From Ignavibacteriales bacterium (GTDB lineage: Bacteria > Bacteroidota > Ignavibacteria > UBA10030), in NCBI GenBank assembly GCA_026390585.1, contig JAPLFP010000357.1:1-37628 (forward strand): a DNA stretch of 37,628 bases, given 5' to 3'. The notes beneath the pieces are model-generated. The model was not told the DNA's origin. It worked only from the letters and a program-made list of their open reading frames with translations, and made no database searches. The translations under genes and the position numbers were made by a program. Shown here piece after piece: positions 9,054 through 34,405 of the stretch. Positions within the stretch are counted from its first letter, which is position 1, and every line of letters begins with the position of its first letter.

Positions 9054-11198
9054 TTAGTTTACGATCTTGCCGAAACGCATCTCTTTCGCAATTCTGTCCA
9101 TTCTGTAGATCTTCTCCATTCCTTCAATCAAACCGGAGGAATGAACGGAGACGCAGCGGTTCTTTGTATCATCGAAGATGAATTGACCCGGGAGACTCTC
9201 GATGTTGCCATCGAACACGAGTCCTACCACCTGAAGGTCTTTGTTAATGACGGGGCTGCCGGAATTGCCACCGATGATGTCATTGGTCGAAACGAAATCC
9301 AGAGGTGTGCTCATCTTGAAATCGGCAGGCGGATTTGCCCAGCGTGCCGGAAGCTTCCAGGGGTCCTTCATACCGAACGAGTAGTAACGATCGTACATCC
9401 CGTAGAATGTTGTGAAGATGGGAGCGATCGTGCCGTTGTACTCGTAACCCTTCACGACCCCATCTGCGATACGCAGGGAGAAGGATGCATCGGGCGGAAT
9501 GCTCGTGCCGAACACATCGTACATCGCCTTCCCCAGCAGCTGCAGCAGGGGTTGTTCCATTGTGTTCAGCGTGCGGATCTGGGCCTGCAGTTCACCGAAA
9601 CGGGTGCTTGCGAATTTCGCGAACTCAATAGTCGGATCGGTCGATTTCAGGATGTCATCCAGCTTGCCGCCGGCCAGTGCTTCCAGCTTCTCTTTCGAGC
9701 CCGTAACAGCACTGCTCATGAGTGCCCCCGCTGCCTGTTCGGGTGTGCGTCCTGCCATCAGCTTGTTGAAAGCTTCGTTGTTGTCACCGAGGTACTTTTT
9801 CATATACGCAAGCTGGTCGATCAGCGTGGACTTCTCGACTTCCGCCGCGTAATTTTTCGGGAACGATGGCTTGCTAGCCGGGCGGCCGCGGAAATCTGGT
9901 TGACCCGTTGCAAAGTCAACGAGGCCTGCTGCTAGCGACAGTGTGGCCGACCAGTTCCGGATGTTCAGGGGAAGAGCTTCTCCCTGAAGCGCCTGGATCT
10001 GTTTTTCATATATTGCGATCTCGCCCCACGGGTCGCCGTATTTTGCCTTAAGCTGCGGGTTGTTGACGACGGAAGAGCGGAAGTTCTTCTCGAAATCCAT
10101 CTTCTTCGCCATCAAGACAGGATCTTTCAAACCGCTGAGAACTCCGGTGATGTTTTTCAAGGAGTTGGAGATACCGAAAATCATGTTCATGTTTTCGTAC
10201 AGCTTGTCAGGGTTTTTCTCCACGTACTCGTTGAGAGCCTTCAGGCGGCTGCCAAGCGTTGCGACATTGTACGGGTAGGTGAAGTCACGTCCGGTCTCGA
10301 GTTGCGAAACCGTGTTGAGACGGCTTGTCCGGCCGGGGTTTCCGATGACGAACACTGGTTCGTTCTCAGCAGCACCGTTCTTGCTGAAGGGGAAGAAGTT
10401 CGGGGTCTTCAGCGGCTTGCCGTTCTCATAAACGCGGAAGAGCGACAGATCATAATCGTACCGGGGATAGGTGAAGTTGTCCGGGTCGCCGCCGTAGAAC
10501 GCGACTTCTTCTTCCGGTGCAAACACGATACGGACATCCGTATAGCGCTTGAATCCGTACAGCGAATACCGGCCTCCGTTATAGAAGCTATAGACCTGAA
10601 AGAACATCGAATCTGCAGAGTTGGATTTCTTGAACTTCGATGCGGAGCGACGCATGAGTTCAGTTTGTTTTGCCGTTCGATTGGCGGTCTTTGCACTGTC
10701 TGTTGTGCCGCTGTCAAACGCTGCCTGGACTTCCGCTGTCACATCTTCAATGGTAATCAGCTGATCGACGTACGTCGGGGCTTTGCGCTCTTCTTCCAGT
10801 GTCTTTGCATAGAATCCATCCGTCGAGAGCTTTTCACCTTCTTTGGCAACTGCTGCCAGCGGACCCCGTGCACAATGATGATTTGTCATCACCAATCCGT
10901 CTTCGGAGATGAAAGAAGCAGTGCAATTGGGAAGTCTCAAGGTCGCCATGCGTGCCTTGTCGAACCATGTTTTGTCCGGAGTGAAACCGTAGGTCTTCTT
11001 GAAATAGTCAACCGGGGGGAAATCAAACGTCCACATCTTGCCCGTGTCGAACTGACCGGCTTTCACCGTTTCAACACTCTGGGCGCTCTCGTGGCTTGCG
11101 GAGTCTACCATCGTTCTGAGAGCGAGGGAGCAACCGCCGAAGACAAACACCGTCGCCACAAGAAGGATGAAGGACGATTTCGTAAATGCTTTGAACAT
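9054..11198 (-). CDS. S46 family dipeptidyl-peptidase lipoprotein, DPP7-like
   Basis: 714 residues from ATG 11198, which has 'GAGGTG' just upstream. The signal peptide has a lipobox ('VFVFGGCS'). The chymotrypsin-fold protease motifs are 'GLVMTNHHCARG' (His), 'YDYDLSLFRVYENGK' (Asp) and 'IIGGNSGSPVI' (Ser). S46 enzymes remove dipeptides from peptide N-termini in the periplasm or cell envelope, typically in asaccharolytic or proteolytic Bacteroidota. Setting the nucleophile as Ser655 of P. gingivalis DPP11, the residue at 673 is Gly ('VFDGNIES'). DPP11 has Arg there for acidic P1 residues and DPP7 has Gly for hydrophobic ones, so DPP7-like specificity is expected. The length matches the family (about 700-720). 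Confidence 0.93.
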   Translation of the reverse strand: MFKAFTKSSFILLVATVFVFGGCSLALRTMVDSASHESAQSVETVKAGQFDTGKMWTFDFPPVDYFKKTYGFTPDKTWFDKARMATLRLPNCTASFISEDGLVMTNHHCARGPLAAVAKEGEKLSTDGFYAKTLEEERKAPTYVDQLITIEDVTAEVQAAFDSGTTDSAKTANRTAKQTELMRRSASKFKKSNSADSMFFQVYSFYNGGRYSLYGFKRYTDVRIVFAPEEEVAFYGGDPDNFTYPRYDYDLSLFRVYENGKPLKTPNFFPFSKNGAAENEPVFVIGNPGRTSRLNTVSQLETGRDFTYPYNVATLGSRLKALNEYVEKNPDKLYENMNMIFGISNSLKNITGVLSGLKDPVLMAKKMDFEKNFRSSVVNNPQLKAKYGDPWGEIAIYEKQIQALQGEALPLNIRNWSATLSLAAGLVDFATGQPDFRGRPASKPSFPKNYAAEVEKSTLIDQLAYMKKYLGDNNEAFNKLMAGRTPEQAAGALMSSAVTGSKEKLEALAGGKLDDILKSTDPTIEFAKFASTRFGELQAQIRTLNTMEQPLLQLLGKAMYDVFGTSIPPDASFSLRIADGVVKGYEYNGTIAPIFTTFYGMYDRYYSFGMKDPWKLPARWANPPADFKMSTPLDFVSTNDIIGGNSGSPVINKDLQVVGLVFDGNIESLPGQFIFDDTKNRCVSVHSSGLIEGMEKIYRMDRIAKEMRFGKIVN

Positions 11199-11351
11199 GG
11201 AAACACCTCGTGGAAAGTGATGAATGGTTGGAATTACGAGCGTCAAGAATGTAACAAGAACTCTCCGTTCACGCAACGAAAACCAGCGCCGAAAAAAAAC
11301 GAATCAGGGAATATGAGGATTTGTCAACAATTCCGAGAACCGACAATCCTT

Positions 11352-11726
11352 TCAGGTGGAAGTTGAGCTGTTTCCCGACAGCTGAAACGCTGCCGACAGA
11401 AGAGCTCCCGCAATGACGTATTCCAATGTTCCGGAGAGGAACCATTGCAGCGCGATGGAATAAGGAATTTGAAGTGTTGCGTAGGAATTGTACGCGTGTG
11501 GGAGAACGATCATGAGTGCGGCATATGTTCCGTAGCGTACACCCTCGAGCAATCCCCTTCCTTCATATCCTTTTGAAAAAATGAACACGAAGAAGAATGA
11601 AAAGAAAACGCCCGTGACAGGCAGCATCCACAATTTGATCTCCGCGATTGGTCGCCAAGGATCGTGGACATCGATCACAGTATGAAACAAGGCAGTGCAG
11701 ATGTGAGAAACAGTGAAGATATGCAA
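11352..11726 (-). CDS. Small membrane protein, probably 5'-truncated or with an uncertain start
   Basis: The frame contains 'WRPIAEIKLWMLPVTGVFF', 'FIFSKGYEGRGLLEGVRYG' and 'IPYSIALQWFLSGTLEYVIA', a pattern I associate with small four-helix membrane proteins of unknown function in several phyla. Such proteins usually have one more TM helix at the N-terminus. Here the upstream frame closes at a TGA about 8 codons before a TTG (11726), and no ATG precedes residue 34 (MLPVTG). Either the gene has lost its first helix or it starts at the TTG. Three hydrophobic stretches remain. It sits alone between the S46 gene and the divergent TPR-receiver gene. Confidence 0.5.
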   Translation of the reverse strand: MHIFTVSHICTALFHTVIDVHDPWRPIAEIKLWMLPVTGVFFSFFFVFIFSKGYEGRGLLEGVRYGTYAALMIVLPHAYNSYATLQIPYSIALQWFLSGTLEYVIAGALLSAAFQLSGNSSTST

Positions 11727-25743: not shown

Positions 25744-28032
25744 ATGAAAAACCTGTTGCGTGTGATTCCCCTCATCCTTCTTAGCTCGTTCTGCACACAC
25801 TTTCTGCCGGCACAATGGCTGCAAACCAACGGGCCATATGGTGGTAAGGTGAATTGCTTCACCGTCTCCGGCACCAATCTCTTTGCCGGGACTTACGGCG
25901 GCGTCTTTCTATCTACCAACAATGGCACAAGCTGGACTGCGGTCAATACCGGCTTGAACACTTCTGTCTTGTCTCTTGCCGTCTCCGGCACGAATCTCTT
26001 TGCCGGGACTTCTGGCGGGGGTGTCTTTCATTCCACCAACAACGGCACAAGCTGGACTGCAGTCAATACCGGCTTGACGAACACTTATGTCTTTGCTCTT
26101 GCCATCTCCGGCGCGAACCTCTTTGCCGGGACTTCTGGCGGCGGTGTCTTTCTTTCCACCAACAACGGCACAAGCTGGACTCAAGTCAATACCGGCTTGA
26201 CGGACACTTCTGTCGATGCACTTGCCGTCTCCGGCGCGAATCTCTTTGCCGGGACTCTGGGCGGCGTCTTTCTTTCGGCCAATAACGGCACAAACTGGAC
26301 TCGAGTCAATACCGGCTTGACGAACACTTCTGTCTGGTCGCTTGCTGTCTCCGGCACGAATCTCTTTGCCGGGACTTATGGTGGCGGCGTCTTTCTATCT
26401 ACCAACAACGGCACAAGCTGGACTCAAGTCAATACCGACTTGACGGACATTTCTGTCTTTGCTTTTGCCGTCTCCGGCGCGAATCTCTTTGCCGGGACTC
26501 GTTACAGCGGCGTCTGGAGACGGCCTCTTTCGGAAATGATCGGAGGAGGAGCGGGAAGCATCAGCCCCTCGGCTGCTGCGCAAGTGCCGGCCGGCGTGCC
26601 GTTCTGGGTCGACGTGAAGGTGGGCGATCCTAACGCTGTATCCGATTTGTACGGTGTCTCGTTCAAACTCAATAGCAACCAGAGCACCTGTACGTACGTG
26701 AGTGGGAGCGCTGAGGCGGGAAGTTTTCTGGGGACGAGTCCGATGGCGATATTCCAGGCCGTCGATGCACAAACAGTAGACATGGCAGTAACAAAGACAT
26801 CCAGCCCGGGAGCAAATGGAAATGGAGTTGTAGCCCGGGCGCAATTTACAACTCCATCATCTCAGGGTACGAATACGAATGTGTTGTTTTCGTTGACAGA
26901 CGTTACGGCGATTAACTCAAGCGGTGCGTCAATTTCGTTGTCAACCGGCACAGTAACCGTCACATTCGTCTCGGCAGCGCAAGTCTTCCCTGGAGACTGT
27001 GACAATAACGGGACGGTCAGTGCGGCTGATCTCTTGCCAATAGGATTGTACTACGGCCAACAAAACGGTACCCAGCCGACCCCAAACAATGCCGGGATTC
27101 AATGGCAAGCCTTTACCAGGGGCTACTGGGCCAACGAGCCTCCCGGGAAAAAAGTGTACGCTGATGCGGATGGCACCGGGATCATCAATACCGCGGATCT
27201 GCTTCCCATCGGTCTCAACTATGGCAAGACGCATCAGGTGACGACGAACAGCGTCAAAGAGCCGGTCGTTGCTGCCGGGACCATGCAGAAGGAAGCTGCT
27301 ACAGAACTCCAGATTGCCTCGGTGACGCGAGAACAATCGGGTGATGGCCAAATGCACATGCGCGTTGTGTTACGTGCAGAGACTCCAGTATACGGCATTG
27401 CGTTTACCTTGAAGTACAATGTCGGAGGATCATCGGAGAACCTTGTGCACCACGCAGCATTGGACACGACAAGAAGTGTGTTTGGTGGAGGGTTGATGTT
27501 CAACCGGGCATCGGATGAGGTTGGCATATGGGACCTCGCGATAACAAGAACGGATGGCATAGACTACAACGGTACGGGTCTCCTGCTGGATCTGGCGCTT
27601 GACGTCCCGACCGGCAGGGAATCGGCGTTGCAGCTTGAAATCTGCAACGTCACAGCAAACGATGCAGCCGGAAATATCGTGAGCATCGCTGGGCTGCTCT
27701 ATCCGGCGGTGGCGACAGGAGTGGATGCCCAGGTGCCTGCATCATTTGGGTTGCAGCAGAACTATCCGAATCCATTTAATCCGAGTACGACAATTGAAGT
27801 GAGTGTTCCGGAGCAAGCTCACCTCGTCATGAGAGTATATGATGTTTTGGGGAGAGGGATTGTGACGCTGTTGGAAGGGGAGAGAGCACCGGGCATTTGC
27901 CGTGTTTCCTGGGATGGGAAAGACGCTGGAGGTGTTCCGGTAAGGAGTGGAGTGTACTATTGCCGTTTGACGGCGCAGGGAACATCGGGAAAGATCTTCA
28001 CGCAGACACGACAGATGGTTGTGGTGAAGTAG
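25744..28032 (+). CDS. T9SS-secreted protein: beta-propeller repeats, cohesin-like and dockerin-like domains
   Basis: 762 residues from ATG 25744 (MKNLLRVIPLILLSSF, ending 'FLPAQW'), preceded by AAAGGAG. Residues about 30-258 are near-identical 40-41-residue blades ('LFAGTSGGGVF', 'STNNGTSWT'), with six LFAGT cores ending 'SGVWRRPLSEM'. Residues about 266-415 resemble a cohesin domain ('VPFWVDVKVGDPNAVSDLYG', 'GNGVVARAQFTTP', 'LTDVTAINSSG'). Residues about 416-498 hold two dockerin-like calcium loops, 'GDCDNNGTVSAADLLPIGL' and 'ADADGTGIINTADLLPIGLN'. A second cohesin-like sandwich lies at about 515-665 ('VYGIAFTLKY', 'ICNVTANDAAG'). The last ~90 residues are a type A T9SS sorting domain ('LQQNYPNPFNPSTTIEVS'). 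Likely surface-attached or secreted; ligand unknown. The next gene is a relative, 22 bp away. Confidence 0.87.
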   Translation: MKNLLRVIPLILLSSFCTHFLPAQWLQTNGPYGGKVNCFTVSGTNLFAGTYGGVFLSTNNGTSWTAVNTGLNTSVLSLAVSGTNLFAGTSGGGVFHSTNNGTSWTAVNTGLTNTYVFALAISGANLFAGTSGGGVFLSTNNGTSWTQVNTGLTDTSVDALAVSGANLFAGTLGGVFLSANNGTNWTRVNTGLTNTSVWSLAVSGTNLFAGTYGGGVFLSTNNGTSWTQVNTDLTDISVFAFAVSGANLFAGTRYSGVWRRPLSEMIGGGAGSISPSAAAQVPAGVPFWVDVKVGDPNAVSDLYGVSFKLNSNQSTCTYVSGSAEAGSFLGTSPMAIFQAVDAQTVDMAVTKTSSPGANGNGVVARAQFTTPSSQGTNTNVLFSLTDVTAINSSGASISLSTGTVTVTFVSAAQVFPGDCDNNGTVSAADLLPIGLYYGQQNGTQPTPNNAGIQWQAFTRGYWANEPPGKKVYADADGTGIINTADLLPIGLNYGKTHQVTTNSVKEPVVAAGTMQKEAATELQIASVTREQSGDGQMHMRVVLRAETPVYGIAFTLKYNVGGSSENLVHHAALDTTRSVFGGGLMFNRASDEVGIWDLAITRTDGIDYNGTGLLLDLALDVPTGRESALQLEICNVTANDAAGNIVSIAGLLYPAVATGVDAQVPASFGLQQNYPNPFNPSTTIEVSVPEQAHLVMRVYDVLGRGIVTLLEGERAPGICRVSWDGKDAGGVPVRSGVYYCRLTAQGTSGKIFTQTRQMVVVK
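25861..26516 (+). repeat. Coding tandem repeat, about 120-123 bp per unit
   Basis: Successive units share long identical stretches such as 'AATCTCTTTGCCGGGACT' and 'AACAACGGCACAAGCTGGAC'. Units differ mostly by GGC additions (GG/GGG in the protein) and single substitutions. Five full units and one terminal half-unit encode propeller blades. The high DNA identity suggests recent duplication and possible change in copy number by recombination. Confidence 0.85.
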
Positions 28033-28054
28033 ATTGAATCGGAAAGGAAGTGCT

Positions 28055-31000
28055 ATGAAAGCACACATACAGCGAGCCGTGTTCCTCATGATTGTCGTGA
28101 TGCCATGGAGTCGGCTTTGTGCGCAATGGACACAGACGAATGGACCGTTTGGCGCGCCTGTTCGGGCACTCGTGGTCAGTGGAACAAATCTGTTTGCAGG
28201 CACTGATGGCAGCGGAGTGTATTCTTCCTCGGACAATGGAGCGCACTGGCGTGCGGCCAATGCGGGCTTGACGGTCGATGATATCCGCTCATTTGCTGTT
28301 GGACCAATGACAGGTGATACCACCCGCTCGAATCTCTTCGCAGGAACTTATAGTGGCGGCATCTTTCTCTCGACGAACAACGGAGACACCTGGAAAGATG
28401 TTCATAGTAACCTGTCGAGCAACAGTGTTACCGCGTTGGCCATCAGCGCTGATGGTGGGGGAGGTGTCAGCCTCTACGCCGGAACTGACGGTGACGGTGT
28501 GTACCGTTCGACCAACAACGGCACAAACTGGGTCGCGGTGAATACCGGTATTCCATTGCCTCTCGCAATCAATGCGCTCATTGTCACCCAGAACCCGTCC
28601 GGCGGAGTCAACATCTTTGCTGGGACGAATGGTGCCGACGGCGGCGTTTACCTCTCAACAAATCGCGGGGCGAGCTGGGCGACCTCGAACCAGGGGATCG
28701 CAGGCGACTATGTCAATTCCTTGGTTGCTAACGGAACAAACTTGTTCGCCGGGACCAATGAGGATGGCGTCTATCGTTCATCAGACAACGGCAAGACATG
28801 GGTTGCGGCACAAGCTGGACTGCCTGCGAATACCACGGTCAATGCCTTCTGTGTCAATGGCACAGTGCTCTTCGCAGCGACGTTTGGAGATGGTGTCTAC
28901 CGTTCCTCGGACAACGGTGCGAGCTGGACGGCAGCAATAGCAGGGCTCACAGACAGCTATGCAAGCGCCCTCGTTTCGAGCGGCACAAACGTCTTCGCCG
29001 GTACCATCAGCGGCGTGTTTCACTCAACCAACAATGGTACCAACTGGACGGCGGTGAACACCGGACTATCATATCGCACCGTCAACACGCTGGTCACCGG
29101 CGGAGACGGTACGAGGCTCTTCGCCGGCACCGTGGATGGAGGCGTCTATCGGTCGACGGACAACGGCGCAACCTGGGATGCACCAAACACGGGTCTTAAG
29201 AAATATGATGGCAACACTGCTAATGTCTACGCACTTGCGGTGATGGGGTCAACCGTGTTCGCTGGAACGGACGCGGATAACGGTGTGTATCGGTCGTCGG
29301 ATAACGGCGCAACTTGGATCGGAGCGCAATCGGGTTTGCCAAACAGGAACACAGCATCGTTGTTCGTCAGCGGCACCTCTCTGTCCGCCGGAGCTTATGG
29401 CGGTGGCGTCTATCGGTCAACAGACAACGGTGTGACCTGGAAGGAATCAGACACAGGAATCCCGTCGATTGCCACTGTGAATGCACTCGTTCTGAACGGC
29501 CAGTATCTCTTTGCCGGGACCTTTGGCAGTGGAGTCTATCGGTCGACAAACAATGGCACAACGTGGGTTGCGGTCAATGCGGGACTCCCAACGCCGGCTT
29601 GGATCAAAAGCCTTATCGTGAGCCAGTCGACGGCGGGTGGTGTGAATTTGTTTGCCGCGACTGAAGGCGATGGCCTCTATCGTTCGACGAACAACGGAAC
29701 AAGCTGGACGGATATCAGTACAGGGCTGCCGATGCATACAACCGGCAACGCTCTGGCTGTCGTTGGGAATGCACTGTATCTGGGGACGGAAGGTGATGGA
29801 GTTTTTGTTTCCGCGGATAGCGGAGCAAGCTGGGTTTCGGTCAATACGGGGTTGACAGATTTGAATGTGAACGCGTTCGCGATGAACGTCAGCGGATCAG
29901 GAACAGCGAACCTCTTCGCAGGCACAGGCTCGAGCGGTGTATTTCGCTTCGTCTCAAACGTGGCATCCATTGCCAGCATTGCTCCCTCAGGCCCATCGCA
30001 GGCTTCCCTTGGCACACCGTTTTGGGTTGACGTGCGTGTGGGAGACTCGAAACCAGTTGCGGGGCTGTACGGCGTTGCGTTTAAATTGAGGAGCAATCAG
30101 GCTACATGCACTTATGTCGACGGGAGTGCGGTGGCGGGCAATCTTCTTGGGGTAAATCCTCTGACGTTTTTTCACGTACTGGATCCTCAGGGTATAGATG
30201 TAGGGGTGTCGATGTCCGCGGGCTCAGGCGTGAGTGGCAACGGCATTGTTGCGAGGGCACAGTTTGTCAGTCTCTCCCCCGGGCCTGTGCGCTTTTCGAT
30301 CGAGAATGTGACCGCTGTGAACCAGGCCGGGGTTGCGATTCCGTTCGACACCACGAGCACAACAGTTCGGGTGACATCATCAAAAGCTTCGTTGAAGCCA
30401 ATAGCAGTATTGCCTGTTGAAGCCGGCAAAGCGTTTCGCGTTCAGATACAAGTGGGAGATCCAAACACGATCTCGGCACTCTATGGAATATCCTGCAAGC
30501 TGCGGAGCAATCAACCGACGTGCACATATGTGAATAGAAGTGCAGCGGCAGGGGACTTCCTAGGCGAGGATTGCCTGACGGTTTTCCATGCGGCTGATTC
30601 TCAAACGGTAGACTTGGGCGTCACCAAGATGGCAAGGCCGGGTGTTGATGGAAGTGGAGTTGTGGCGAGCGCACAGTTCATTTCCTCAGTATCGGGGACG
30701 GTGCAATTCTCCCTGCTTGACGTCATAGCAGTCGACACAAGTGGCAAAGCGATTGATCTTGAAACATCTGGTGCGACAATCACCATCGCGTCCACGATTG
30801 CAGTTCTCAGACCACTTGCTGTTCCACCGTACACGTCCGGAAAGCCATTTTGGATTGAAGTCCGTGTGGGCGACCCGGTCGCCACCGGCCTCTATGGTCT
30901 GTCATTCAAGTTGAGAAGTGATCGGTCGACCTGCACGTATGTGAAAGGGAGTGTTGCGTCAGAAGCGTTCTTTGGAGCGAATCCACTCGTACTTGCCGCT

Positions 31001-31825
31001 GCAGTTGATTCACAAACGGTGGATATTGGCATCACAAAGACAGCACACCCGGGTATTGATGGCAGTGGCTTTGTCGTGAAGGCGCAGTTTGTCTGTCCGC
31101 CGAGCGGTGACGTCCATTTCTCCTTCCTTGACGTCTCCGCGGTCGACCAAAACGGTTCAAAGATTTCTCTCAATCTGGCTGGAGGAGCCATTACGGTGAC
31201 GTCGAGTACTCGTACTCCGGTCCTCACTGGTAAGGTGCCGGCACGATTGCCGTCACTCACACCGAACACTGCGGTCACATTTTCGGTGAATGTCACTGAT
31301 CCGAACAACCTTCCACTATTATACATCTGGAAAGTTGACGGGGATGTGAAGAAAGTGGGGGACAGCACTTTCACATGGACCTTCACGCAAACGTCCGGAT
31401 CAGCATATGGTATCGCGCAACAATCAGCGTCATCTCCGACTGTCACGTGTGTCTTCCAGGATCAAGGCGGACTCCAGGATTCGACCGTCTGGTCTCTCGC
31501 TACAGATGTCATTGTTGAACATCCGGTCCCGACGCAATTCATGCTGAGCCAGAATTATCCCAACCCGTTTAATCCAACAACGAATTTCGAGTTTCGGATT
31601 GGGAATTTCTCCGCCAAAGGCGGATCCGCCTCCGGCGGAGAATTTGTGATGTTGAAGATATTTGATGTTCTTGGGAGAGAGGTCAGCACGCTCGTGAACG
31701 AGGTGCGTCCGGCTGGCGTGTATACGGTTCGATGGGATGGATCGATGATGCCGAGTGGAGTCTATTTGTACCGTCTCCGTGCCGGGAGTTTTGTTTCAAC
31801 GAAGCAGATGGTGCTTCTGAAGTAA
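28055..31825 (+). CDS. T9SS-secreted protein: 14 propeller blades and three cohesin-like domains
   Basis: 1256 residues from ATG 28055, preceded by GGAAAGGAAG; a TTG at 28034 is less likely. The signal peptide ends 'SRLCAQW' and is followed by 'TQTNGPFG', as in the previous protein. Residues about 30-635 hold 13 full blades plus a terminal one ('LFAGT.G.GVYRS(S/T)DNG..W'), enough for two seven-bladed propellers of the sialidase/BNR type. Three cohesin-like domains follow at about 640-775, 776-905 and 906-1045 ('FWVDVRVGDSKPVAGLYGVA', 'STCTYVKGSV', 'GSGVVASAQF'). An Ig-like domain (about 1050-1150, 'PNNLPLLYIWKVDGD') precedes the T9SS type A sorting domain ('LSQNYPNPFNPTTNFEF'). That domain carries an in-frame palindromic insert at 31607-31642. 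No dockerin-like loops were seen here. Confidence 0.87.
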   Translation: MKAHIQRAVFLMIVVMPWSRLCAQWTQTNGPFGAPVRALVVSGTNLFAGTDGSGVYSSSDNGAHWRAANAGLTVDDIRSFAVGPMTGDTTRSNLFAGTYSGGIFLSTNNGDTWKDVHSNLSSNSVTALAISADGGGGVSLYAGTDGDGVYRSTNNGTNWVAVNTGIPLPLAINALIVTQNPSGGVNIFAGTNGADGGVYLSTNRGASWATSNQGIAGDYVNSLVANGTNLFAGTNEDGVYRSSDNGKTWVAAQAGLPANTTVNAFCVNGTVLFAATFGDGVYRSSDNGASWTAAIAGLTDSYASALVSSGTNVFAGTISGVFHSTNNGTNWTAVNTGLSYRTVNTLVTGGDGTRLFAGTVDGGVYRSTDNGATWDAPNTGLKKYDGNTANVYALAVMGSTVFAGTDADNGVYRSSDNGATWIGAQSGLPNRNTASLFVSGTSLSAGAYGGGVYRSTDNGVTWKESDTGIPSIATVNALVLNGQYLFAGTFGSGVYRSTNNGTTWVAVNAGLPTPAWIKSLIVSQSTAGGVNLFAATEGDGLYRSTNNGTSWTDISTGLPMHTTGNALAVVGNALYLGTEGDGVFVSADSGASWVSVNTGLTDLNVNAFAMNVSGSGTANLFAGTGSSGVFRFVSNVASIASIAPSGPSQASLGTPFWVDVRVGDSKPVAGLYGVAFKLRSNQATCTYVDGSAVAGNLLGVNPLTFFHVLDPQGIDVGVSMSAGSGVSGNGIVARAQFVSLSPGPVRFSIENVTAVNQAGVAIPFDTTSTTVRVTSSKASLKPIAVLPVEAGKAFRVQIQVGDPNTISALYGISCKLRSNQPTCTYVNRSAAAGDFLGEDCLTVFHAADSQTVDLGVTKMARPGVDGSGVVASAQFISSVSGTVQFSLLDVIAVDTSGKAIDLETSGATITIASTIAVLRPLAVPPYTSGKPFWIEVRVGDPVATGLYGLSFKLRSDRSTCTYVKGSVASEAFFGANPLVLAAAVDSQTVDIGITKTAHPGIDGSGFVVKAQFVCPPSGDVHFSFLDVSAVDQNGSKISLNLAGGAITVTSSTRTPVLTGKVPARLPSLTPNTAVTFSVNVTDPNNLPLLYIWKVDGDVKKVGDSTFTWTFTQTSGSAYGIAQQSASSPTVTCVFQDQGGLQDSTVWSLATDVIVEHPVPTQFMLSQNYPNPFNPTTNFEFRIGNFSAKGGSASGGEFVMLKIFDVLGREVSTLVNEVRPAGVYTVRWDGSMMPSGVYLYRLRAGSFVSTKQMVLLK
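28163..29950 (+). repeat. Coding blade repeats of the second T9SS protein, diverged
   Basis: Fourteen units of about 40-50 codons with the core (L/V)FAGT followed by a GV(Y/F)RS-type strand and a (D/N)NG..W turn. They are less alike at DNA level than those at 25861-26516, so this array is older or under diversification. Unit spacing is irregular because some loops carry extra Gly/Asp or 'SGGVNIF' insertions. Confidence 0.75.
31607..31642. repeat. 36-bp near-perfect palindrome inserted in frame in the T9SS sorting domain
   Basis: The arms are TTCTCCGCC (31607-31615) and GGCGGAGAA (31634-31642). The centre is GGCGGATCCGCC (31619-31630), itself a perfect palindrome; only the two 3-base spacers (AAA, TCC) break the symmetry. 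It adds exactly 12 codons, read as 'FSAKGGSASGGE', between the sorting-domain strands 'FEFRIGN' and 'FVMLKIFDVLGRE', where relatives, as I recall them, have none. It resembles a small mobile palindromic element tolerated in a coding loop. Confidence 0.8.
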
Positions 31826-31927: not shown

Positions 31928-33037
31928 ATGCGCATCGATCGAATCGAACTCCGCCATACAAAAATGGAACTTGTCTCTCCGTTCGAAACATCCCTCGGAG
32001 TTGAACTCTACGAAGAACACATTATTGTCCGGGTCGATGGAGACGGTGTGAGCGGTTGGGGTGAGTGCGTCGTGGAGCCAACGCCATCGTACTCCTATGA
32101 AACACTGCAGACGGCATGGCATGTGCTGCGCGATTTTCTGATCCCGGCTCTCCTGAGGAAAGACATCTCGAGCATGGAAGATGCGCTGGCGAAGACCGCC
32201 TGGGTTCGCGGCCATCGAATGGCTCGGGCAGGAGTGGAGGCGGCGCTGTCGGACGCATTGGCGAAAGCGAAAGGGATTTCACTCTCTCAGTTCCTGGGAG
32301 GGACACGCAAACGCATCAACGTTGGTGTGAGTGTGGGATTGCAATCATCGCCTGCCCGATTGGTGGAGGTTATTGCAGAGTACTTGCAGGATGGTTACAA
32401 GCGTATCAAAATCAAGATTGCGCCCGGACGGGATCTCGATCTAGTCATAGCGGTCCGAAAAGCGTACCCGAGTATCCAGTTGCAGGTCGATGCCAACTCC
32501 GCGTATACACTGAAAGACATCGACATGCTTCGAGCGCTGGATGAATACAACCTTCAGCTTATTGAGCAGCCGCTTGGATATGATGACATCTATGACCATT
32601 CGATCCTGGCGAGGGAATTGAAAACACCCATCTGCCTCGATGAGAGTATTTACAATGTGTCCGACACCAAAGCCGCACTGGAATTGGGCAGCTGCCGAAT
32701 CATCAACATCAAACCGGGACGCGTTGGCGGGTACACCGAGTCGAAGAGAATCCACGATTTCTGTGCCTCGAAGAATGTTCCGGTATGGCACGGCGGGATG
32801 GACGAATCCGGTATTGGGCGGGCAGGAAATGTCGCCCTCGCTTCGCTTCCGAACTTTGTTCTTCCCGGAGACATCTCCGCAAGCAAGCGATACTATAAAG
32901 AAGATACTGTCGATCCCGCCTTTGAGGTCGATTCAGACGGCACGATGGCAGTTCCTACGAAACCGGGAATTGGAGTTGAGGTGCTGATGGATCGCTTGGA
33001 GCGGGTGACCGCACGCCGCGAAGAATTCAAAGCGTAA
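31928..33037 (+). CDS. menC: o-Succinylbenzoate synthase / N-acylamino acid racemase family (enolase superfamily)
   Basis: 369 residues, the usual length. The ATG is preceded by CAGGAG. The capping domain starts 'MELVSPFETSLGVELYEEHI'. Catalytic features of the MenC/NSAR subgroup are seen: KxK in 'RIKIKIAPG', metal ligands in 'LQVDANSAYT', 'LIEQPLGYDD' and 'CLDESIYN', and the second lysine in 'IINIKPGRVGG', followed by 'WHGGMDESGIGRA'. The family either dehydrates SHCHC to o-succinylbenzoate in menaquinone synthesis or racemises N-succinyl amino acids; sequence cannot separate these. No other men gene is nearby, so a racemase role in amino-acid conversion is at least as likely. It precedes the GntR-LacI regulator by about 240 bp. 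Confidence 0.85.
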   Translation: MRIDRIELRHTKMELVSPFETSLGVELYEEHIIVRVDGDGVSGWGECVVEPTPSYSYETLQTAWHVLRDFLIPALLRKDISSMEDALAKTAWVRGHRMARAGVEAALSDALAKAKGISLSQFLGGTRKRINVGVSVGLQSSPARLVEVIAEYLQDGYKRIKIKIAPGRDLDLVIAVRKAYPSIQLQVDANSAYTLKDIDMLRALDEYNLQLIEQPLGYDDIYDHSILARELKTPICLDESIYNVSDTKAALELGSCRIINIKPGRVGGYTESKRIHDFCASKNVPVWHGGMDESGIGRAGNVALASLPNFVLPGDISASKRYYKEDTVDPAFEVDSDGTMAVPTKPGIGVEVLMDRLERVTARREEFKA

Positions 33038-33218
33038 TCAGTGAGCCCAGATTCTTGCAGTCGATTCTCTTGAGAAACTCTCTTCTCCGCGAAACAAAAA
33101 AATCTATTCACTCCTACTGATTTCTAAATGCCGCTGACCGCTGTCCACCGGCGCACGTTTCTTTCTCCTCACTTTGCCACAATTCGGAATGGTTGCCATC
33201 CGGCAGAGAAAAATTAAC

Positions 33219-33247
33219 TTGACAACACGGGACTTATCTTGTAATCT
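33219..33247 (+). promoter_or_regulatory. Promoter of the GntR-LacI-type regulator gene
   Basis: TTGACA (33219-33224) is a perfect -35 hexamer. After 17 bases comes TAATCT (33242-33247), a moderate -10. The predicted transcription start falls at about 33253-33256, inside the palindrome at 33253-33270, so repressor binding there would block initiation. Confidence 0.55.
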
Positions 33248-33252
33248 TGGCA

Positions 33253-33270
33253 TACCTAGTATACCAGGTA
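33253..33270. promoter_or_regulatory. 18-bp near-perfect palindromic operator, probably for the adjacent regulator
   Basis: TACCTAGTATACCAGGTA reads the same on both strands except for one base pair (A at 33258 against C at 33265). The centre is GTATAC. GntR-type winged helices bind short palindromes of this size, and AraR-type regulators bind sites with a similar central TAC/GTA symmetry. It lies 10 bp before the regulator's start codon and overlaps its predicted transcription start, as expected for autorepression. Confidence 0.65.
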
Positions 33271-33280
33271 ACACCCCTCC

Positions 33281-34405
33281 ATGCCGATTGATGTTCAGGA
33301 TTCCACCCCGCTCTACCTTCAAATCGTCGATGATATCAAATCGAAGATTGCTTCGAAGGAGCTAAAAGCCGGCGACCAGCTTGGCTCGCATGCTGCGTTA
33401 TCTTCCGCCTATAGAGTAAGCCTCATCACGGTAAAGAAAGCGCTCGCCACACTCAACAACGACGGCGTCGTTTTCAGCCGTGTCGGCAAAGGTACGTACG
33501 TTGCCCAGCATACCATTGACGCACGACAGAACGGACATCCAACCATCGGACTCGTCATTCGGGATGTTCGCAGTCCATTCTTTTCACGCGTCATGCACAG
33601 CGTGGAAGATGCTGCGTATGAGCTTGGGTATCATGTTCTTGTCTCCAATTCGTCCGGCAAGGCGGAAAAGGAAGAAGCACAGATTGCCCGATTCCGGGAA
33701 TTCGGCGTCAACGGAATGATCATTGCGTCCATGACTCACAAATACCACCCTACACCGACGGTCCGCAAGATGCTTCATCAGGGATTTCCATTCGTGATGG
33801 TTTCCTTCATCGCTGATGAGGACGTTCCATTTGTGGGCAGCGACCACGAGCAGGGAGGATACCTGGCAACAGAGTATCTCATGAGACAGGGATACCAGAA
33901 AATCGGATACATCAATGGTGAGCGCGGAAATATGGTTGGAGAGCTCCGTCGGCGTGGATACGAACACGCACTGAAAGACCATGGACGACGTGTCGATAAG
34001 AACCTTCTGTTTCATCTGCGAATGAGAGGGGAGCACCACGATTATCAATCGGGCTACGAGATAGGAAAGAAAATTGCGACGCTGCGCCTGCGGCCGGACG
34101 CTGTGTTTGTGTACAACGATCTTTCGGCTTTGGGATTTGAAGACGCAATCCTCGAGCACGGGCTACGTATTCCTGACGACATTGCCATCGTCGGATTTGA
34201 CGACATCGAGCGGGGCGAGTATGCGCCCGTTTCCCTCTCTACCGTTCGTCAGCCCACCAGCATGATCGGAAAAGAAGCCGTGAGCCTTCTCCTGAAACTG
34301 ATGCAGGGGAAAAACGTGAGCATTCGCCGTGTCCTGAAGACCAAGCTTGTGATCAGGGGATCTTCCGGAAGAAAGAAGGTCACTCGGGTCGGCGAACGTT
34401 CGTGA
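33281..34405 (+). CDS. Transcriptional regulator, GntR-type DNA-binding domain + LacI-type sensor (AraR-like)
   Basis: 374 residues. Residues about 8-75 form a GntR winged helix-turn-helix ('PLYLQIVDDIKSKIASKELK', 'SLITVKKALATLNNDGVVFS', 'GKGTYVA'). Residues about 88-355 form a LacI/periplasmic-binding-protein sensor ('TIGLVIRDVRSPFFSRVMHS', 'QKIGYINGERGN', 'DDIAIVGFDDIE', 'LSTVRQP'). Regulators of this hybrid type, such as AraR, release DNA on binding a sugar. It probably controls itself through the palindrome at 33253-33270. The TonB-dependent receptor starts 89 bp after its stop and is the natural candidate target, although I saw no second copy of the operator there. The ligand is unknown. 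Confidence 0.92.
   Translation: MPIDVQDSTPLYLQIVDDIKSKIASKELKAGDQLGSHAALSSAYRVSLITVKKALATLNNDGVVFSRVGKGTYVAQHTIDARQNGHPTIGLVIRDVRSPFFSRVMHSVEDAAYELGYHVLVSNSSGKAEKEEAQIARFREFGVNGMIIASMTHKYHPTPTVRKMLHQGFPFVMVSFIADEDVPFVGSDHEQGGYLATEYLMRQGYQKIGYINGERGNMVGELRRRGYEHALKDHGRRVDKNLLFHLRMRGEHHDYQSGYEIGKKIATLRLRPDAVFVYNDLSALGFEDAILEHGLRIPDDIAIVGFDDIERGEYAPVSLSTVRQPTSMIGKEAVSLLLKLMQGKNVSIRRVLKTKLVIRGSSGRKKVTRVGERS

Follow-up and report, generated by a model that had tools for sequence, protein, structure and literature searches.

The window analysed here is a stretch of 37,628 nucleotides from an Ignavibacteriales bacterium (GenBank assembly GCA_026390585.1, contig JAPLFP010000357.1), and its subject is a pair of neighbouring genes on one strand, P1 and P2, with 22 bases from the stop codon of P1 to the ATG of P2. 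P1 carries a cohesin module, a variant dockerin and a C-terminal sorting domain of the type IX secretion system (T9SS), while P2 carries three cohesins and a sorting domain of the same kind (Table 1). Both proteins have signal-peptide-like N-termini when read by eye; the earliest in-frame start of P2 is a TTG at 28034, and the ATG at 28055 begins the signal-peptide-like sequence. An earlier sequence-only reading of this DNA had placed both proteins correctly (P1 at 25744-28032, P2 ending at 31825). P1 and P2 probably form the two halves of a surface assembly that is joined by cohesin and dockerin and exported through the T9SS.

Domain families in P1 and P2

The first module of P1 and the three modules of P2 are strongly supported as cohesins by fold and profile, though not as Pfam members. 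The P2 modules are 47-52% identical to the P1 module (E 3e-35 to 5e-37), and their cohesin fold rests on this identity to the folded module of P1; the three cohesin-like domains read in P2 are upheld. Used as a query against its own genome, the P1 cohesin found four copies only, one in P1 and three in P2. When a cohesin profile of 26 modules was compared with PDB sequences, the first 21 of 29 matches were cohesins (1g1k at E 6e-8, 2vn5 at 7.6e-8); up to E 10, 24 of the 29 were cohesins and the other five were Hz136 and four ARNT entries. P1 residues 268-667 were modelled with AlphaFold (41 sequences, pLDDT 88.7, pTM 0.76), and all 50 entries listed by a structural aligner contain a cohesin, the best being 5nrm_A (Z 17.9, 1.9 Å over 135 residues). 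These matches speak against the modules being only generic Ig-like folds. The list effectively covers the first 148 residues of the model, and the fold of the second sandwich in P1 was barely probed; of the two cohesin-like sandwiches claimed for P1, the first was confirmed, and the second is recognised as a member of the cohesin family by the family profile only. Integrin ectodomains in a Foldseek search with the whole P1 block (21 of 50 rows) were set aside as a sandwich-plus-loop resemblance, with TM scores of 0.20-0.24 by query length.

Profile, loops and fold jointly support the dockerin assignment. The top PDB match of the dockerin profile is the dockerin 2y3n_B (E 6e-8). A model of the P1 dockerin (68 sequences, pLDDT 90.8) has helices after both loops; 17 of its 18 Foldseek matches are dockerin chains (best E 0.068), and it superposes on 2y3n_B with a Z of 6.2, a value weak by itself (2.7 Å over 59 residues). 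Both calcium loops fit a lenient rule (a pattern at positions 1, 3, 5, 6, 8 and 12) in 62 of the 68 sequences, P1 included, and the dockerin-like pair of loops that the sequence-only reading had pointed out is borne out by these results. The two repeats are alike, 59% identical in P1 and 48% on average over the 68 sequences. The module is a variant in its longer middle part, which carries two tryptophans kept in every one of the 68 aligned sequences (P1 together with 67 of the 89 found); the L101 dockerin, outside those 68, has phenylalanine at one of these positions. In P1, 13 residues separate the cohesin and dockerin profile matches. No further close copy of the P1 dockerin was found above noise in its own genome (one extra match, E 0.6).

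Against TIGR04183, the model of the T9SS type A tail with a cut-off of 23 bits, P1 scored 27.6 and P2 28.8, so that the sorting domain claimed for the first protein was found on the second as well; with Pfam Por_Secre_tail they scored 17.3 and 21.4 bits, under the cut-off of 27. The genome encodes SprA (108 bits) and PorU (985 bits), both over cut-off, as neither was in any of 14 control genomes. With a sorting domain on each protein and the T9SS in the genome, P1 and P2 qualify, on sequence criteria, as predicted type A cargo.

As for the remaining domains, Pfam named Sortilin-Vps10 and BNR in the regions that had been read as propellers, a reading made plausible by the strict Asp-boxes, 5 in P1 and 13 in P2; the 14 blades counted in P2 come close to the latter number. 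Propeller-type repeats aside, Pfam at E <= 1 gave no catalytic or carbohydrate-binding family for P1 or P2. Before its tail P2 has a PKD-like domain that is 37% identical over 92 columns to one at the corresponding position of another cohesin protein of the genome, described below. P1 is preceded by an amino acid permease gene, and P2 is followed (31928-34405) by an enolase-superfamily (MR/MLE) enzyme and a GntR-LacI type regulator; this order is kept at the related locus L104.

Table 1. Features of the P1/P2 gene pair, in window coordinates.
Feature	Position	Strand	Basis or detail
P1, dockerin-bearing T9SS cargo (predicted)	25744..28032	+	762 aa; ATG 25744; open reading frame and TIGR04183 tail
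P1 Asp-box repeats (propeller-like)	25816..26523	+	5 strict Asp-boxes; Sortilin-Vps10 33.4 bits, cut-off 33
P1 cohesin module, upstream of dockerin	26554..26970	+	alignment A1; structure model; best match 5nrm_A
P1 variant dockerin, two Ca-loop/F-helix repeats, longer Trp-bearing middle	26983..27240	+	profile match 2y3n_B; model
P1 dockerin Ca loop 1	26995..27030	+	lenient loop rule met in 67/68 sequences, P1 included
P1 dockerin Ca loop 2	27163..27198	+	lenient loop rule met in 62/68 sequences
P1 second cohesin-like sandwich	27289..27702	+	predicted strands; family-profile match 27385-27684, E 4e-6
P1 T9SS C-terminal sorting domain	27763..28032	+	TIGR04183 over cut-off
P2, three-cohesin T9SS cargo (predicted)	28055..31825	+	1256 aa from ATG 28055
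P2 Asp-box repeats (propeller-like)	28145..29960	+	13 strict Asp-boxes; Sortilin-Vps10 100 bits
P2 cohesin 1	29972..30373	+	match to P1 module and family profile
P2 cohesin 2	30386..30793	+	match to P1 module and family profile
P2 cohesin 3	30803..31207	+	match to P1 module and family profile
P2 PKD-like domain, common to the genome's second cohesin protein	31274..31540	+	BLASTP E 8e-13, two-sequence comparison
P2 T9SS C-terminal sorting domain	31556..31825	+	TIGR04183 28.8 bits

Gene order, anchors and distribution

The genome of P1 and P2 repeats the dockerin-then-cohesin arrangement with another sequence type. On contig C138 (L084:1-4141) a second such pair of T9SS proteins lies over the curated Pfam cut-offs (24.1 bits for PF00963 and 22.9 for PF00404, Dockerin_1), the dockerin scoring 34.0 bits and the cohesin 42.7, and its cohesin protein has a PKD-like domain like that of P2. 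The open frame of this cohesin protein begins one base after the dockerin stop, a position that marks the start of the frame, not an established protein start. The sequence-only reading had suggested looking for other dockerin-bearing T9SS proteins in the genome, and they were found on contigs C138 and C309; two dockerin loci of the genome exceed the PF00404 line, P1 not being among them. The C309 protein has a carboxypeptidase-regulatory domain and lies upstream of a T9SS-tailed GH18 glycosidase (L085:7592-9139, 10175-11617). The genome also encodes, on contig C318, a Pfam-grade cohesin protein with fn3 domains and a tail (L006:1297-2802). PF00963 had matches in 2 of the 14 control genomes, one of them over cut-off.

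A scan of named genomes with eight dockerin queries gave 338 matches, of which the best 80 fall into 78 loci (given L numbers here), labelled as Ignavibacteria, other Bacteroidota, KSB1, Latescibacterota, Cloacimonadota, Zixibacteria, Eisenbacteria and one Actinomycetota. The closest among these best 80 is the syntenic locus of Ignavibacteriae fen_1268 (L104), where six of the seven neighbouring proteins tried were found at 79-90% identity. In the main alignments with the counterparts there, identity is about 60% for P1 and 53% for P2, a far faster divergence than that of their syntenic neighbours, and the number of cohesins differs, with three in P2 and two in the P2 of L104 (pair at L104:7646-14053).

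Adjacency was counted in 66 loci that had been fetched by the dockerin alone and lie outside the profile-building set, with 76 dockerin genes. A cohesin was present in 10 of the 36 same-strand, non-dockerin genes that begin within 300 bp downstream of a dockerin gene, in 1 of 20 upstream neighbours (a broken neighbour in L105) and in 0 of 356 other genes. The profile-building set gave 8/22 downstream, 0/18 upstream and 5/228 elsewhere, figures that serve as illustration only. Further neighbours were seen by eye and stand outside these counts: those of L088/L114 (E 3e-5), L152 (gap above 300 bp), L198 and L076, the last supported by a drifted iterated profile only; the drifting profile was replaced by profiles of the listed alignments A2 and A3. 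At L196:6031-14999, a T9SS cohesin protein comes after a large T9SS protein whose EF-loop pair escapes the dockerin profile, and the two may be one more pair, of the textbook kind.

Cohesins also occur in cis, preceding the dockerin in 47 proteins; the gap measures 9-17 residues in 38 of these, 31 and 33 residues in two, and more than 200 residues in the other seven. In a tree of 155 cohesin modules, the class of each module was compared with that of its nearest relative in another locus. Among the cis cohesins the two classes agreed for 44/47 upstream, 35/45 downstream and 13/17 distant modules; the figures were 14/15 for lipoprotein cohesins and 10/26 for T9SS trans cohesins. Host kinship accounts for part of this agreement. 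The P1 cohesin is nearest to the cohesin of the L104 P1, and each P2 cohesin has its nearest relative within P2 or in the P2-like proteins of L104 and L105; one trans module of L105 is nearest to the cohesin of P1. Because the cohesins of P1 and P2 group with their L104 and L105 counterparts in this way, the division into cis and trans roles is probably older than the divergence of these genomes.

The wider distribution was surveyed in 395 genomes from the phylum of the P1/P2 host. With P1 and P2 as the only queries, the cohesin was found in 14 genomes, the dockerin in 47 and both in 12 (hypergeometric 1e-9 without the own genome, kinship uncorrected). With the family profiles, of which A3 was built partly from loci around dockerins, the counts were 35, 49 and 25, against 4.3 genomes expected to have both, again uncorrected for kinship. 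A lack of conserved co-occurrence had been named as something that would tell against pairing; adjacency (10/36 downstream) and co-occurrence (12 shared genomes) are both conserved.

All six loci labelled Cloacimonadota have a dockerin-cohesin pair. There the partner has 166-191 residues, a lipobox and one cohesin. Five Cloacimonadota genomes (G395-G399, 2.2-3.0 Mb) were chosen for their known pair, covering five of the six loci with L143 left out. Searched with the family profiles, which leave Pfam-type modules outside the search, each had one dockerin and one cohesin match, in neighbouring genes in 5 of 5. Other genomes had more varied numbers of dockerin and cohesin matches (G400 1 and 2, G402 5 and 16, G403 1 and 6, G404 3 and 7), and bacterium Yes70-08 (G401, locus L152, 4.3 Mb) had 19 dockerin matches, three of them partial, and 35 cohesin matches. 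Several of the G401 matches lie in proteins longer than 2,600 residues, an expanded system.

The two kinds of gene differ in their anchors. Among the 129 dockerin genes (duplicates included), a tail was recognised by pattern in 106 and a strict lipobox in none, compared with a strict lipobox in 35 of 941 other genes. The 45 genes with a cohesin and no dockerin include three duplicates of other loci (L112, L136, L151) and two near-identical genes of one genome (L187, L188); the pattern recognises a T9SS tail in 23 and a strict lipobox is present in 11, while a lipobox was read by eye in another four (L092, L141, L171, L184), so that 38 of the 45 are tailed or predicted lipoproteins. Of the remaining seven, six are at the end of a contig, next to an N run or in a broken frame. 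Lipoproteins of about 318 residues with a C-terminal cohesin were seen at L185:7164-8120, L186:6557-7513, L187:7239-8189 and L188:7059-8009. An origin of the lipoprotein cohesins in a single clade found no support in this tree, judged by its topology: their common ancestor spans all 155 sequences.

Receptor, fibre, stalk or enzyme complex

In the assembly proposed for P1 and P2, signal peptides would take both proteins to the periplasm and the C-terminal tails would carry them across the outer membrane. Outside the cell, the calcium-loaded dockerin of P1 would clip onto a P2 cohesin; with three of these, P2 would be a trivalent surface receptor for P1, and the cohesin of P1 may take another P1 and so extend the array. 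In relatives with the pair, the receptor gene would be the one directly after the dockerin gene, its product T9SS-tailed or a small one-cohesin lipoprotein presumably exposed at the surface. The general rule would then be that a dockerin tags T9SS cargo and a cohesin serves as the surface-held receptor, a cargo-and-receptor reading that is drawn from the tails on 106 of 129 dockerin genes and the tail or lipid signal on 38 of 45 cohesin-only genes. It is a tentative proposal, with somewhat less than an even chance, that this is a general way of holding secreted proteins on diderm surfaces, in which T9SS cargo tagged with the tryptophan-insert dockerin is caught by a cohesin that a neighbouring gene encodes and that a lipid or a T9SS tail fixes to the outer membrane, in Bacteroidota, Cloacimonadota, Latescibacterota and other phyla.

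A number of results weigh against the pairing of P1 with P2 or against its generality. Some concern family membership. The checks against PF00404 and PF00963 that came with the sequence-only reading failed for this pair: the P1 dockerin scored 14.4 bits, below the Dockerin_1 line, and PF00963 was not listed for P1 or P2 at E <= 1, which is why the modules are named cohesins by fold and profile. The Dockerin_1 line was likewise missed by four of six cassette dockerin proteins scanned (L104, L132, L139, L141), and PF00963 was not listed for the partners of L104, L139, L114 and L136 at E <= 0.1 or 0.01. The other two dockerin proteins, in L136 (Stygiobacter) and L114 (Roseithermus sacchariphilus), passed, one with 23.9 bits and the other with 24.3, and the partner cohesins of L132 (Latescibacterota) and L151 (Salinivenus lutea) exceed the PF00963 line, one with 46.8 bits and the other with 100.4; the cassette cohesins and dockerins form a continuum that straddles the Pfam lines. 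After 2y3n_B the dockerin profile matches many calmodulins, as calcium loops are expected to do, and the statistics of the dockerin model (E 0.068, Z 6.2) are weak in isolation. PF00404 also had matches in 9 of the 14 control genomes, mostly weak, with two over cut-off.

Other points on this side concern gene order and anchoring. In 26 of 36 cases the downstream neighbour lacks a cohesin. The ten out-of-sample pairs are not ten events, since L139, L143 and L154 are close to one another, as are L141 and L171, and the six Cloacimonadota loci represent about three lineages. Of the 54 cohesin frames met in the phylum survey, 24 were in cis with a dockerin, 9 were in trans within 8 kb, 7 were unlinked in a dockerin-bearing genome and 14 were in genomes where this dockerin was not found. 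No dockerin gene was found in the fetched stretches of L185-L188. One of the 45 cohesin-only genes (L080) has no visible anchor, and contig C190 of the P1/P2 genome encodes a small secreted Pfam-grade cohesin of 169 residues, not counted among those 45, without a T9SS tail or lipobox cysteine (L005:569-1078). P1 and P2 are both T9SS-tailed, so neither obviously needs an anchor. Finally, P1 carries its own cohesin directly before its dockerin, an arrangement that recurs in relatives. The sequence-only reading, which named the families rightly, had left this cohesin unweighed; in cis as it is, it may serve self-assembly or a cis clamp.

Self-assembly, in which the dockerin of P1 binds the cohesin of the next P1 to form a homopolymer fibre with P2 as a branched end or cap, is an unlikely but serious alternative. 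It is favoured by the narrow 9-17-residue gap in 38 of 47 proteins and by the upstream cohesins forming a class of their own, with nearest relatives upstream too in 44 of 47. Clostridial dockerins are symmetric and bind in a dual mode, and the alike repeats of this dockerin (59% in P1, mean 48%) fit such a binder. A fibre, however, leaves the adjacent trans cohesins unexplained where the dockerin protein showed no cohesin, as in Cloacimonadota, L092 and L101. We consider it rather improbable that the cohesin-dockerin-cohesin block is a rigid, calcium-stabilised stalk before the tail, with no partner, and the adjacent cohesin genes tandem copies of genes for surface proteins. A fixed cassette order and spacing would suit a stalk, as would the pTM of 0.76 for the 400-residue block, which hints at defined packing, the cohesin frames in genomes where this dockerin was not found (14/54) and the cohesin-free downstream neighbours (26/36). 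Yet the downstream bias (10/36 against 1/20 upstream) speaks for more than a stalk, the single dockerin and cohesin in neighbouring genes of five genomes are unlike tandem copies, and the partner lipoproteins are small, 14 of 15 being nearest to another lipoprotein cohesin, with host kinship contributing.

A polymer-degrading enzyme complex of the cellulosome type, as put forward for Ca. Stygibacter (PMC8542988), is very improbable for P1 and P2. Some dockerin proteins of the family do carry enzymes (a gingipain-type C25 peptidase in L141, an M23 peptidase in L136), and the counts in G401 would suit such a complex. P1 and P2, however, lack a catalytic or carbohydrate-binding Pfam family within the limits given above, and their Pfam content is not that of dockerin enzymes on a scaffoldin with a carbohydrate-binding module; nor does their genome, with only two dockerin loci over the Pfam line and P1 outside them, look like one built around such a complex.

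Relation to known systems

Cohesin-dockerin systems are classic in Clostridia. The clostridial cellulosome pairs (1ohz, 2vn5, and the type II pair 2y3n of B. cellulosolvens) resemble P1 and P2 in the cohesin fold and the paired calcium-loop/F-helix dockerin, and one partner has several cohesins, as P2 does. P1 and P2 differ from them in their T9SS tails and in having no catalytic or cellulose-binding domain found by Pfam, and P1 differs in its longer two-tryptophan dockerin and in holding cohesin and dockerin in one chain. A non-cellulosomal pairing of secreted proteins is offered by NagJ/NagH of Clostridium perfringens (2ozn), both modules of which are among the matches of the P1 family; unlike P1 and P2, these are Gram-positive secreted glycosidases with a FIVAR-dockerin. 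Ruminococcus ScaG and ScaE (4wkz, 2zf9, among the structural matches) use a single cohesin as a surface receptor, like the lipoprotein cohesins of the relatives, with wall anchoring where those relatives have a lipobox.

The nearest precedent is that of Williams et al. (2021), who proposed for Ca. Stygibacter (Cloacimonadota) a cellulosome-like complex in which dockerin enzymes go with a scaffoldin whose C-terminal domain would attach it to the surface (PMC8542988). That proposal resembles P1 and P2 in its dockerin proteins and its multi-cohesin protein with a C-terminal sorting domain, and in being made from sequence only; it rests on enzymes and one scaffoldin of 3,755 residues. The P1/P2 family is instead a recurrent gene pair with a variant dockerin mostly below the Pfam line and with lipoprotein cohesins, none of which was met in the portion of the report consulted. 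The statement that such pairs are not established for T9SS cargo stands for experiments, in the literature examined, and falls short where a surface scaffoldin with dockerin enzymes had already been proposed. In the sections consulted, a 2018 paper on a T9SS-using bacterium described an absence of cohesins and dockerins, consistent with other Bacteroidetes genomes (PMC5831590), and a 2023 paper described Pfam-grade dockerins, without cohesins, in a few single-cell genomes of Bacteroidota (PMC10266427). The cohesin-dockerin kind of system is thus already known; the open-licence literature searched yielded no report of the variant dockerin, of the recurrent gene order in different phyla or of T9SS bacteria with lipoprotein cohesins.

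Such systems would have been overlooked because the variant falls mostly below the Pfam lines (49 of 395 genomes of the phylum have it). The recurrence of the same side-by-side arrangement in several distant bacterial groups suggests that exported proteins are clipped onto the cell surface in this way. If this is true, cohesin-dockerin assembly would be joined to type IX secretion, with partners of simple stoichiometry in the five Cloacimonadota genomes that have one dockerin and one cohesin match each, and the family could supply new binding pairs for protein engineering.

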